The notes beneath the pieces were generated by a model, which had not been told where the DNA came from, did not search any database, and worked only from the letters and a program-made list of their open reading frames with translations. From Pseudooceanicola marinus (GTDB lineage: Bacteria; Pseudomonadota; Alphaproteobacteria; Rhodobacterales; Rhodobacteraceae), in assembly GCF_002786295.1 (NCBI RefSeq), contig NZ_PGTC01000013.1, positions 131,501 through 195,500 of the forward strand: a stretch of 64,000 nt of DNA. Direction: 5' to 3'. This document shows positions 6,575-48,148 of the stretch, one piece after another. Each line of letters opens with the position of its first letter. The stretch's first letter is position 1. Made by a program: the position numbers and the translations under genes.

Positions 6575-8724
6575 TGGGCCTTCTCCTTCGCTTCCCGACG
6601 GCGGGCATGCAGCACCGGTTCGGTATAGCCCGAAGGCTGCGCCACGCCGGTGAAGATCAGGTCCCGCGCGGCGGCAAATGCCACCCCGTCGAAATCGGGC
6701 GCCATGGGGGTATAGGCCGGGTCACCGGCATTCTGGGCGTCGACCTTGACGGCCATGCGGCGCAGGGCGTCCTCGACCTGGTCTTCGCTGACCAGGCCGT
6801 GCAACAGCCAGTTGGCCAGGTACTGGGACGAGATCCGCAGCGTCGCGCGGTCTTCCATCAGGCCCACGTCGTTGATGTCGGGCACCTTGGAACAGCCCAC
6901 GCCCTGGTCGATCCAGCGCACCACGTAGCCCAGGATGCCCTGGCAGTTGTTTTCCACCTCGCGGGTCACCTCCTCGTCCGTCAAGTTGCGCCCCGACAGC
7001 AGCGGCGGCGTCAGCAGCGCATCCAGCGAGGCGGCCTCACGGCCCTTCAGCTCATTCTGGCGGGCGAAGACATCGACCTGATGGTAGTGGGTGGCGTGCA
7101 GCGTGGCGGCCGTGGGCGACGGCACCCAGGCGCAGTTGGCGCCAGCCATCGGGTGGCCGATCTTGGCCTCCAGCATCTCCGCCATCTTGTCCGGCTTGGC
7201 CCACATGCCCTTGCCGATCTGCCCCTTGCCCTGCAGGCCCAGGGTCAGGCCGGTATCGACGTTGCCCTGTTCATAGGCGGCCAGCCAGCCGGCCTTGGCC
7301 ATGTCGGCCTTGGGCACGAAGGCGCCCGCCTGCATCGAGGTGTGGATCTCATCGCCCGTCCGGTCGAGGAAGCCGGTGTTGATGAAGACCACGCGGTCCT
7401 TCACCTGGCGCAGGCATTCGGAGAGGTTGACCGAAGTGCGGCGCTCCTCATCCATCACGCCCAGCTTCACCGTGTTCAGCGGCAGGCCCAGAACGGCCTC
7501 CACATCGGCATAAAGACGATCGGCAAAGGCCACTTCCTCCGGCCCGTGCATCTTGGGCTTCACCACGTAGACCGACCCGGTGCGGGAATTGCGCGGGCCC
7601 TCGGTCTTGGCCAGATCGTGCATGGCGCAGGTCACGGTGACCATGGCGTCCAGCATGCCCTCGGGCGTCTCCTCGCCCTCGAAGAGCACCGCATCGGTGG
7701 TCATCAGGTGCCCCACGTTGCGCACCAGCTGCAGCGACCGGCCCTGCAGCGACAGGTCACTGCCGTCAGGCGCGGTCAGCGCCATGTCGGGGGCCAGGAC
7801 GCGGGTCATCGTCTCGCCGCCCTTCTCGAAGGTCTCGCTGAGGTCGCCCTTCATCAGGCCCAGCCAGTTGGCATAGGCCAGAACCTTGTCCGCGGCATCG
7901 ACGCAGGCCACGCTGTCCTCGCAATCCTGGATCGCGGTCAGGGCCGATTCCAGCAGCACGTCGCGCAGACCCGCGGCGCTGTCGCGGCCCACCGGGTGCG
8001 AGGGGTCGATCAGCAGGCCGATGTGCAACCCGTTGTGGCGCAGCATGTAAGTGGCCGTGGCGCCCTCTTCGGCGTAGCCCACGAAGACATGCGGATCCTT
8101 GAAACCGTGCACGCCGGACGCCGAGCGCGCCATCAGCTCTTTGCCCTCGCGGAAATACTCGCTGACCTCGGTGTGCGAGATCGTCTTCAGCGGCACCGTG
8201 GTGTCCAGGAACTCCGCCGCCCAGGCCACCGCCTGCGCGCCGCGCTTGGGGTCGTATCCCTTGCCCTCGGGCGCACCCGGCAGGGCATCGGTGCCGTAAA
8301 GCGCGTCGTAGAGCGATCCCCAGCGGGCATTGGCGGCGTTCAGCGCAAAGCGGGCGTTGGTGATCGGCACCACCAGCTGCGGACCGGCGACACGGGCGAT
8401 CTCGTCATCGACGTTCTCGGTGCCGATGGAGAAATCCGGGCCCTCGGGAACGATATAGCCGATCTCCTCCAGGAAGGCGCGATAGGCGGTGCCATCCCAG
8501 GGCTGGCCCTTGCGGGCGGTCAGCCAGTCGTCGATCTGCGCCTGCATCGTCTCGCGCGTGTTCAGCAGGGCCAGGTTCTGCGGCACCAGGTCCCGCAGGA
8601 TGCCGGCGTAGCCGGCCCAGAACTCTTCCGCCCCCACGGGCAGGCCGGGCAGAACCTGCCCTTCGATCAGATCGGCCAGTTCGGTGGCCACGGACAGGCC
8701 GGCGCGGCGGACATAGTCGGTCAT
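6571..8724 (-). CDS. glcB: Malate synthase G
   Basis: This is malate synthase isoform G, which condenses glyoxylate with acetyl-CoA to give malate. The ATG at 8724 gives 717 residues, close to the E. coli enzyme (723), and has an AGGAGA ribosome site; longer in-frame starts lack support. The TIM-barrel core carries the family stretch GSVYVVKPKMHGP. An aceA (isocitrate lyase) gene is not in the window. glcG follows with a four-base overlap. A TTTCCA-type palindrome about 70 bases upstream is a likely operator. Confidence 0.98.
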   Translation of the reverse strand: MTDYVRRAGLSVATELADLIEGQVLPGLPVGAEEFWAGYAGILRDLVPQNLALLNTRETMQAQIDDWLTARKGQPWDGTAYRAFLEEIGYIVPEGPDFSIGTENVDDEIARVAGPQLVVPITNARFALNAANARWGSLYDALYGTDALPGAPEGKGYDPKRGAQAVAWAAEFLDTTVPLKTISHTEVSEYFREGKELMARSASGVHGFKDPHVFVGYAEEGATATYMLRHNGLHIGLLIDPSHPVGRDSAAGLRDVLLESALTAIQDCEDSVACVDAADKVLAYANWLGLMKGDLSETFEKGGETMTRVLAPDMALTAPDGSDLSLQGRSLQLVRNVGHLMTTDAVLFEGEETPEGMLDAMVTVTCAMHDLAKTEGPRNSRTGSVYVVKPKMHGPEEVAFADRLYADVEAVLGLPLNTVKLGVMDEERRTSVNLSECLRQVKDRVVFINTGFLDRTGDEIHTSMQAGAFVPKADMAKAGWLAAYEQGNVDTGLTLGLQGKGQIGKGMWAKPDKMAEMLEAKIGHPMAGANCAWVPSPTAATLHATHYHQVDVFARQNELKGREAASLDALLTPPLLSGRNLTDEEVTREVENNCQGILGYVVRWIDQGVGCSKVPDINDVGLMEDRATLRISSQYLANWLLHGLVSEDQVEDALRRMAVKVDAQNAGDPAYTPMAPDFDGVAFAAARDLIFTGVAQPSGYTEPVLHARRREAKEKAQ

Positions 8725-45958: not shown

Positions 45959-46672
45959 TCAGGGGCGCAACCGGCAGGACGCCAGCGCCTGATAGGCGGG
46001 CAGCGCGGCCTCGGCCAGCGTGGCCATCTCCCCGGTCAGCCTCGGCATCTCCCCCTCGGCCCCGGCAAACCCGGTCGAGCCGTGAACGGCATTGTACCAA
46101 TGCGCGGCCCAAACCCCGTCATGGGATTTCGGGCCCGCCTCCCAGGACAGCATCGCCGGATCCCAAGCCAGCCCCAGCCGGTCGCAGAGCGCGCGCAGCA
46201 TTCCCTCCGGGTCGGCGCGGATGTCCAGGCTGTCGATGACCACCGGATCATGGCCCTCCATCAGCACCTGCTCGAACAGCTCCGCCTGCTGGACGAAGCC
46301 GATCTCCGACAGTTCCGGATTGTCGTACTTGGCCGAGAAACTGGCCACGACGCGGGCCGGATGGCGGATCAGGAAGACATGCCGCATGTCCCCGAACCAG
46401 TCGCGCGGGATCTGCGGGATCATGTGTTGGGCCATATGCTTGTGATAGGCATGCGGCGTGGCATCGGGGGCTGTCAGCGTGGCGATCACCTCACCCGGGT
46501 CCTGCGGTTGCGCCGCCAGGATCTCCGCCTGCATCGGGTGCACTCGGCCCGTCAGCGCCAGGTAGGCAGCGTAGAAGGGTTCATCCACGGCGGAAAAATC
46601 TTCCCGGTTTCCAAAGGCATACATCATCGCGGTGGAGATATTGCGGGGGCCGGACCAGCAGGCGATCTTCAT
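45959..46672 (-). CDS. P-loop sulfotransferase-like protein
   Basis: The 237-residue protein resembles the sulfotransferase superfamily. WSGPRNISTAMMYAFGN (about residues 6-22) takes the place of the PAPS-phosphate-binding loop, and the RHPARVVASF stretch near residue 105 is the typical 3'-phosphate-binding region (RxPxxxxxS). Its ATG overlaps the stop of a class IV aminotransferase (ATGA), so the two are coupled. From memory, plants and some animals have a fused protein of this kind labelled aminotransferase-like. The substrate is unknown. Confidence 0.83.
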   Translation of the reverse strand: MKIACWSGPRNISTAMMYAFGNREDFSAVDEPFYAAYLALTGRVHPMQAEILAAQPQDPGEVIATLTAPDATPHAYHKHMAQHMIPQIPRDWFGDMRHVFLIRHPARVVASFSAKYDNPELSEIGFVQQAELFEQVLMEGHDPVVIDSLDIRADPEGMLRALCDRLGLAWDPAMLSWEAGPKSHDGVWAAHWYNAVHGSTGFAGAEGEMPRLTGEMATLAEAALPAYQALASCRLRP

Positions 46673-47586
46673 CGCGATGCCTCCCGCGCCACAAGATCCT
46701 TGTAAAGCGCGCGGATGCGTTCGGTGACAGGCCCCAGCGCGCCGGTGCCGATCTGCCGCCCGTCGATCTCCCCGACAGGCGTCTGGGCGCCAAAGGTGCC
46801 GGTCAGGAAGGCCTCGTCCGCGCCATAAGTATCGACGAGGGAGAAGTTGCGCTCGAACACCGGGATGCCCTCGGCGCGGCAGACATCGATCACCTTCTGC
46901 CGGGTGATCCCGTTCATGCAGTAGTCCCCCGTGGAGGTCCAAACCTCGCCCTTGCGGACGATGAAGAAGTTGCAGGAATTGGTGGTGTTGACGAAGCCAT
47001 GCACGTCCAGCATCAGCCCCTCGTCAGCGCCGGCCTTCTCGGCGGCGATGCAGGCCAGGATGCAATTCAGCTTGGAATGGGAATTCAGCTTGGGATCCTG
47101 GGTCATCGGCAGGCCGCGCAGATGCGGCACGGTGGCCAGGCGGATCGGACGGCCCAGGACCGGCTTGGAATGTTCCATGATGATCGCGACCGTGGGCCCC
47201 GACCGCGACAGCGAGGGATGCTGGAACGGGCGGTCCTTCACGCCGCGGGTGACCATCAGCCGGGCATGGGCGTCGGTTTCCATGCCGTTGGCGGCGCGCA
47301 GCTCCTCCAGCGCCACCTCGATCTCTCCCTTGGACAGCCCGATGTCCAGGTCGATGGCCAGGGCCGCCTCGAACAGCCGGTCCAGGTGTTCGTCCAGGAA
47401 GGCCCAGTGCCCGTCATACAGGCGCAGCCCCTCCCAGATGCCATCGCCCAGCATGAAGCCGCTGTCGTAGATCGACACGACGGCCTCGGCCTTGCCGACG
47501 ATCTTGCCGTTCAGCCAGAACTTCAGGTCATCGTTGCGGGCGTCATGTTCCGCATCATGGGCGGTCTGGTCCCGGGTATCGCTCAT
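46669..47586 (-). CDS. Class IV aminotransferase (branched-chain/D-amino-acid type), unusual active site
   Basis: The ATG at 47586 gives 305 residues of the fold-type IV PLP family (IlvE, DAAT, ADCL). The PLP lysine is K172 (NSHSKLNC), and the GDGIWEGLRLYDG stretch near 47-59 is typical. In the usual GFVxEGxxxN motif, the glutamate that contacts the pyridine nitrogen is replaced: this protein reads GFVNTTNSCNFF, with T201 at that position. It is coupled by a four-base overlap to a sulfotransferase-like gene. Reaction and substrate are uncertain. Confidence 0.9.
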   Translation of the reverse strand: MSDTRDQTAHDAEHDARNDDLKFWLNGKIVGKAEAVVSIYDSGFMLGDGIWEGLRLYDGHWAFLDEHLDRLFEAALAIDLDIGLSKGEIEVALEELRAANGMETDAHARLMVTRGVKDRPFQHPSLSRSGPTVAIIMEHSKPVLGRPIRLATVPHLRGLPMTQDPKLNSHSKLNCILACIAAEKAGADEGLMLDVHGFVNTTNSCNFFIVRKGEVWTSTGDYCMNGITRQKVIDVCRAEGIPVFERNFSLVDTYGADEAFLTGTFGAQTPVGEIDGRQIGTGALGPVTERIRALYKDLVAREASR

Positions 47587-47737: not shown

Positions 47738-48148
47738 TCACTCTGCGGTGATGACCGACATCACCAGGTCACCACCGGGCTTGATCGGGCCGTCCTCGGT
47801 GGCGCCCAGGGTGTATTCGAACATGCCGGTGGTCATGCCACCCTCTTCGGAGTGGACCATCAGCATCAGCATGTCGCCGGGCATCACGTCTTCTTGCAGG
47901 ATGGCGGCCACATCCATGGTTTCGCCGACGCGCAGGGGTGCATAGCCGACGACCGGGCCGGGGGCCATTTCGGCATCGGTGCGGTGCACGACCAACCAGC
48001 CGTTTTCCGGGGCCACGACCTTGGTGGCGCTGACCACGCCGTTGGACACGTCCTGGTCCATGGCTTCGACCATGGGGGCCATGTGATCGTCGGCGAGGGC
48101 GACGGAGGCAACGAGGCTGAGGCCGGCGGCTGCGATAAGGGTCTTCAT
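47738..48148 (-). CDS. Secreted DUF7282-like protein
   Basis: The 136-residue protein has a signal peptide (about 1-19, ending VALA-DD) and a beta-rich domain with paired VVHRTDAEMAPGPVVGYAPL and a Met/Gly-rich stretch. This pattern resembles DUF7282 domains seen in haloarchaea and alphaproteobacteria, though the match is from memory. It is acidic and probably periplasmic. It lies alone on the minus strand, with a GGGAGAT ribosome site. No function is known. Confidence 0.78.
   Translation of the reverse strand: MKTLIAAAGLSLVASVALADDHMAPMVEAMDQDVSNGVVSATKVVAPENGWLVVHRTDAEMAPGPVVGYAPLRVGETMDVAAILQEDVMPGDMLMLMVHSEEGGMTTGMFEYTLGATEDGPIKPGGDLVMSVITAE

Follow-up and report, generated by a model that had tools for sequence, protein, structure and literature searches.

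The window, that is, the whole stretch of 64,000 nucleotides analyzed here, carries a pair of overlapping genes on its minus strand. The gene at 46669..47586 codes for a class IV aminotransferase-like protein of 305 amino acids (here called AT), recognized by a profile match, by alignment and by fold matches in the PDB. The gene at 45959..46672, on the same strand, codes for a Sulfotransfer_5 protein of 237 amino acids (ST), recognized by a profile match, by alignment and by a structural model, and containing the P-loop WSGPRNIST and the 3'-phosphate-type motif RHPARVVAS. The stop codon of AT and the start codon of ST share the sequence ATGA (46669..46672, minus strand). Both reading frames and their overlap had been described in an earlier note on this DNA, and both were present in the sequence. 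The families that it proposed were also recovered in profile searches: AT matched Aminotran_4 (PF01063; E value of 6.2e-39 and 134.6 bits, against a cut-off of 28.5), and ST matched Sulfotransfer_5 (PF19798; E value of 3.3e-83 and 279 bits). All 18 NCBIfam transaminase or lyase models that matched AT scored below their cut-offs (for TIGR01122, 189.9 versus 245.55). The genome to which the window belongs measures 4.5 Mb, with a completeness of 99.66%, and among the best 80 of 577 relatives of AT the nearest named one was from Pseudooceanicola marinus (99% identity). Directly upstream of the pair, and on the same strand, lies a gene for a small DUF7282 protein (window positions 47738-48148).

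The active site of AT was examined by aligning it with the archaeal branched-chain aminotransferase (BCAT) 5mqz. Thr201 (codon 46984..46986, minus strand), which lies within the motif GFVNTTNSCNFF (residues 197-208), faced the glutamate of GYVSEGSGDNIF, in a part of the alignment free of gaps. The earlier note had placed a threonine where the glutamate contacting the ring nitrogen of pyridoxal phosphate (PLP) is normally found, and this held. A glutamate displaced to a neighboring position is not apparent from the sequence, since residues 195 to 208 include no Glu or Asp, the nearest acidic residue being D194. The note had also taken K172 for the catalytic lysine, and here the alignment contradicted it. 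Where fold-type IV transaminases carry their catalytic lysine (that of IKSLNYLN in 5mqz), AT has Asn168 of LNSHSKLN (codon 47083..47085, minus strand), while Lys172 (codon 47071..47073, minus strand) lies four residues further on and faces the Tyr of the 5mqz motif, a residue that we take to contact the ring hydroxyl of PLP. By contrast, R70, T228 and T264 of AT fall in elements (the Arg of EHxDR, GIT and TGT) that presumably bind the PLP phosphate.

As the alignment shows, AT lacks both the Schiff-base lysine and the ring-nitrogen glutamate, and, judged by these residues, it does not qualify as an ordinary transaminase. The suggestion of an altered PLP site stands with respect to the change at position 201; the picture of a working PLP-lysine site with a single odd residue does not, the lysine being gone as well. 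Similarly, a reaction departing from normal transamination had been proposed on account of Thr201, and normal transamination is indeed very unlikely, the reason now being the absence of the catalytic lysine itself. A model of AT built from its sequence and 34 of the 80 close AT sequences was weak (mean pLDDT of 74.6), falling below 50 across residues 157 to 170, the stretch holding N168, and the PDB fold matches report on the overall fold and not on the geometry at positions 168, 172 and 201. Because the model was poor at N168, the assignment of the site is founded on the sequence alignment together with two PDB deposits, the Variovorax paradoxus protein 7z79 and its N174K mutant, 9j32.

The conservation of these positions was studied in a set of 155 AT family members, comprising 80 close loci chosen as the best of 577 relatives, 68 divergent loci from samples of the phylum and of the class, six plasmid records and the window protein itself. 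The six records were taken from 129 plasmid matches, many of which were ordinary transaminases at about 33% identity. Position 168 was Asn in all 155 sequences, and it was still Asn in all of the remaining 80 when the 75 closest sequences were removed. Position 201, whose conservation the earlier note had proposed to check, was Thr in 136 members and Ser in 19, and position 172 was Lys in 135 and Arg in 20. Both positions varied together, with 135 sequences of the K/T type, 19 of the R/S type and a single R/T. The presumed phosphate-binding residues were kept across the family, R70 and T228 in every sequence and T264 as Thr in 152 and Ser in 3. Many polar residues were invariant, including N168, S171, N203, R109, H107, R114, Q122 and E138, and the N-terminal D15-x-R17-N18 was also kept (R17 in 154 of 155). 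This invariance across 155 sequences indicates strong constraint and not decay. None of the alignment columns was Lys in all 155 members, the closest being K117 (Lys in 151, Arg in 4). As a rule for the whole family, a Schiff-base lysine relocated to K172 or K117 was rejected, given the Arg found instead in 20 and 4 of the 155 sequences, respectively.

Four control proteins, namely, three further class IV proteins encoded in the window's genome and an ordinary BCAT (L153), were kept apart from the family set. All four had Glu at position 201. At position 168 two of them had Lys, the third (L002) being misaligned there and the fourth (L004) having a gap. In a tree of 89 rows, the AT family was split from two BCAT controls by a branch with support values of 100/99 and a length of 5.0, a distance that is only rough because both controls sit on long branches. 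At the sequence level, alignment and tree show AT to belong to a family that is strongly conserved and that groups apart from ordinary aminotransferases.

The association between AT and ST was analyzed in the same loci. ST was found downstream of AT, on the same strand, in all 80 closest loci (the best 80 of 577), with the two matches no more than 781 bases apart. When start codons were assigned by a simple rule, the two genes overlapped in 49 of these 80 loci (by 4 nucleotides in 24 and by 1 nucleotide in 25), and in 77 they lay no more than 100 bases apart. Of the 68 divergent loci, 44 had an adjoining ST gene, downstream in 37 and upstream in 7; in 12 others ST lay elsewhere in the genome, and the genomes of the last 12 gave no PF19798 match. 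The loci with ST upstream were spread over more than one part of the AT tree, and ST neighbors were present in the K/T and R/S subgroups alike. No AT-ST fusion was seen among the bacterial loci examined. A 656-amino-acid frame at the ST of genome G031 was considered as a candidate fusion and discarded, since by coordinates worked out by hand the AT match lies in another frame.

Both genes also occurred together at the level of whole genomes. AT was counted at an E value of 1e-45 or lower, and strong ST matches were those below 1e-50 in the phylum sample and below 1e-45 in the class sample; eight AT genomes were common to both samples. Among the 398 genomes of the phylum sample, 41 had AT and 37 had a strong ST, all 37 of the latter having both and four having AT only (Fisher P value of 5e-48, ignoring relatedness). 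In nine of these 37 genomes the two genes lay apart. With the window's own family left out, 14 genomes of this sample had both genes and four had AT only; 23 of the 27 own-family genomes listed in the sample carried AT. The 289 genomes of the class sample included 36 with AT and 27 with a strong ST, of which 26 had both, 10 had AT only and one had ST only (P value of 9e-28, relatedness again ignored). Genome G443 (87% complete, 5% contaminated) is a case of ST without AT, having an ST match at 7.7e-52 and AT matches solely in the range of ordinary transaminases, the best at 3.7e-24. Weak PF19798 matches were left uncounted; they comprised, in five genomes, a second match (E values from 2.4e-22 to 5.8e-14) and, in G344 and G630, the only match (1.5e-16 and 7.3e-7, respectively). 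In the latter two genomes no AT was found at 1e-45, only matches in the ordinary range. The conserved pairing that the earlier note had anticipated was thus borne out by adjacency in the close and divergent loci and by the presence of AT in every strong-ST genome of the phylum sample. These searches show that the presence of AT is tied to that of the Sulfotransfer_5 protein. The 12 divergent loci in genomes with no PF19798 match point, for their part, to a role of AT without ST.

ST was modeled from 44 of the 75 ST sequences that passed an E value of 1e-20 and had no stop codon, plus the window ST, and the model reached a pLDDT of 94.3. Its fold matched 5wrj (Z score of 14.5), 4gox (14.5) and 4gbm (14.3), with root mean square deviations of 3.8 to 4.1 over 212 to 221 residues. 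In the 45 aligned ST proteins, W6, S7, G8, P9, R10, N11 and S13 were invariant, as were R103, H104, P105, V108 and S111. We take the P-loop and the R103...S111 stretch to be the sulfotransferase P-loop and 3'-phosphate motifs.

The supply of 3'-phosphoadenosine 5'-phosphosulfate (PAPS) was also considered. APS kinase (PF01583) gave a strong match (E value below 1e-30) in 54 of the 58 strong-ST genomes. No match was obtained in the window's own genome (G000), nor in G032 and G427, and that of G401 was weak (2.9e-4). APS kinase was likewise unmatched in 3 of the 12 AT-only genomes (G434, G470 and G654). Within the genus, it was found in 20 of 22 genomes, being missing from G000 and from the one-contig genome G675 (93% complete), both of which carry ST; ST itself was present in 17 of the 22. 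A PF01507 gene, of the APS/PAPS-reductase type, was found in G000 and G675, and none was found in G427. The lack of an APS kinase match makes the PAPS supply of the window's own genome uncertain and speaks against ST being a simple PAPS enzyme. For G000, G675, G032 and G427, and for G401 with its weak match, all five with a strong Sulfotransfer_5 gene, the gap would reflect either a true loss accompanied by the use of another sulfo donor or gaps in the assemblies.

AT was also found in a different setting. An amino-acid ABC transporter operon lay beside AT in 9 of the 12 loci from genomes with no ST and in 4 of the 6 plasmid loci, and 11 of these 13 rows formed one clade (91/99). A GntR/FCD regulator gene was found beside the ABC operon of such loci, accompanied in some by a pyrroline-5-carboxylate-reductase-like gene and a ClC chloride channel gene and in one by an MmgE/PrpD gene. 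One locus of this type, L195, belongs to a genome (G390) with ST elsewhere, so the two contexts are not mutually exclusive. The ABC-transporter setting suggests that the ligand of AT may be amino-acid-like. In viral_contigs, no viral carrier was confirmed, and on plasmids ST was represented by four distant matches only (29 to 32% identity).

Neighboring genes were clustered from the open reading frames of 61 loci, using crude calling and removing presumed antisense-shadow clusters by eye; L205, a locus lacking AT, as well as L206 and L207 were left out of the neighbor listing. No conserved third gene emerged in the 61 loci: besides ST, the neighbors were mainly ABC-transporter genes, at loci with no adjoining ST. 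Other neighbors recurred in at most 10 loci, among them an M24 peptidase, named by its profile, and genes which from the starts of their sequences are presumably a dihydrolipoamide dehydrogenase and an acyl-CoA ligase. In four loci (L162, L165, L166 and L191) the AT-like gene lies in an amino-acid ABC operon and has a ClC chloride channel gene as a neighbor, and three of them also contain a pyrroline-5-carboxylate-reductase-like gene. A gene of the MmgE/PrpD family occurs near the AT-like gene in L163, from a Pantoea plasmid, and in L201, from a genome of the window's own family. In L176, a gene of the Porphyromonas-type peptidylarginine deiminase family (positions 6903-8015) directly follows the AT-like gene, and ST lies elsewhere in that genome.

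Most likely, AT and ST form a two-step or two-protein unit acting on one small amino-acid-like metabolite. With moderate confidence, we regard AT as a derivative of the BCAT/D-amino-acid aminotransferase fold that has lost the lysine and the glutamate, would no longer be a transaminase and would act as the partner of ST on that metabolite. In such a scheme, ST would sulfate the amino-acid-like metabolite, with PAPS or a closely related compound as the sulfo donor. Within its former cofactor pocket, AT would bind either the substrate or the product of sulfation, without a covalent bond. The phosphate cup would then accommodate a phosphate or sulfate on the ligand, which AT would either convert independently of PLP or select and pass on. 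In lineages with no ST, the same pocket might serve a related compound, perhaps imported by the amino-acid ABC transporter. What the data establish are the changed residues, the constraint and the coupling of the genes; the ligand, the sulfo donor and the order of the steps are inferred.

The kept phosphate cup also fits an enzyme that still uses its cofactor, binding pyridoxamine phosphate (PMP) or a preformed PLP-substrate aldimine non-covalently while another base carries out the cofactor chemistry. This is the case in the GDP-4-keto-6-deoxymannose 3-dehydratase ColD, which has His in place of the lysine, and a Thr or Ser at the PLP ring nitrogen would favor quinonoid-free reactions, as in fold-type II enzymes. 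To our knowledge, however, a lysine-less PLP/PMP enzyme has no precedent in fold-type IV. The E177S variant of D-amino-acid transaminase has been crystallized (1g2w), a point in favor of this reading, but in AT the Lys, Glu and Tyr places are all altered, well beyond the lysine alone, and we consider this possibility rather unlikely. Both a new phosphate- or sulfate-bearing ligand and non-covalent PLP or PMP are compatible with a kept cup and a rebuilt ring pocket, and we favor the former. A conventional transaminase whose Schiff-base lysine had moved to K172 or K117 would be in keeping with the Lys at these positions in most of the family; nevertheless, it is highly improbable in view of the Arg in the rest, of the coupled variation of 172 with 201, and of 7z79, which has Arg at the place of 172 and in which the depositors introduced a lysine by means of N174K.

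The loss of the catalytic residues and the coupling to ST would also suit a protein with no catalysis at all, serving as a scaffold, an allosteric partner or a sensor for ST or for the transporter. The many polar residues invariant in all 155 sequences exceed what a bare scaffold should need, however, and AT is found in two gene contexts, so that we judge such a pseudoenzyme improbable. It could finally be that AT and ST are brought together by chance or by shared regulation only and belong to separate pathways, as the 12 divergent loci with no ST in the genome and the other set of neighbors might indicate. Against this, a strong ST occurred without AT in none of 37 genomes of the phylum sample and in just 1 of 27 of the class sample, even where the genes are unlinked, and adjacency occurs in both gene orders; we would be surprised if this explanation were correct. 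Returning to AT as the non-transaminase partner of ST, a wider and quite tentative proposal, doubtful as a whole, is that a fold-type IV family exchanged its PLP-lysine chemistry for a pocket of Asn168, Lys/Arg172, Thr/Ser201 and Asn203 and, together with Sulfotransfer_5, serves in bacteria to make or recycle a sulfated, amino-acid-like compound not described so far, with a fused form retained in plants and possibly a sulfo donor other than PAPS in some lineages, including that of the window.

Absence of the lysine had already been implied by the public structures 7z79 and 9j32 and is therefore not seen here for the first time. Among open-access papers, none was found on either structure, and no mention was found there of the loss of both residues throughout the family, of the coupled change at 172 and 201 or of the tie to Sulfotransfer_5. 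PF19798 is listed in a table of one article (PMC11625862), and the word aminotransferase does not occur in the main text of another, on plant sulfotransferases (PMC12506393). Database entries label hits H1 and H2 as D-amino acid or branched-chain amino acid aminotransferases, and the records of Ruegeria pomeroyi and Dinoroseobacter shibae read aminotransferase class IV. The family is thus labeled with transaminase names, whereas the residues defining that chemistry are missing. The coupling to ST narrows the search for its function to a sulfated metabolite, and the named relatives of AT include those of marine bacteria that can be cultured, Phaeobacter and Leisingera among them.

The closest known system is the aminotransferase-like protein 7z79, with 44% identity to AT over 289 residues, a Z score of 30.0 and a root mean square deviation of 3.0. 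It has Asn at the lysine place (chain position 174, counted through alignment gaps, the one mutated in 9j32) and the closely similar motifs LNSHSRLN and GFVSSCNSTNFF. It differs from AT in having Arg for Lys172 and Ser for Thr201 and is thus of the R/S-subgroup type; the mark of this family, Asn at the lysine place with Ser or Thr at the glutamate place, is found in AT. The fold-type IV BCATs and D-amino-acid transaminases (5mqz, 5e25, 1daa and 1i1k) share with AT the PF01063 domain, the fold (Z scores of 25.7 to 27.5) and the phosphate cup. Unlike them, AT has Asn for the lysine, Thr or Ser for the ring glutamate and Lys or Arg for the Tyr four residues on, in addition to the family-kept D15, R17 and N18.

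ST, for its part, shares the fold of tyrosylprotein sulfotransferases (5wrj and 3ap3) and of the sulfotransferase domains of olefin synthase (4gox) and curacin synthase (4gbm), with Z scores of 14.5 to 14.2 and 12 to 16% identity over the aligned residues. Its R103...S111 stretch aligned with the 3'-phosphate-type motif of 4gox, a weak match by sequence (E value of 0.016). In contrast to those PAPS-dependent enzymes, ST has a transaminase-like partner, and its own genome gave no APS kinase match. In plants, the branched-chain-amino-acid aminotransferase-like proteins are probably fusions of a sulfotransferase-like and a class IV aminotransferase domain, with about the summed length of ST and AT. 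If this fusion is of the same kind, the present pair would bear also on plant proteins of unknown function.
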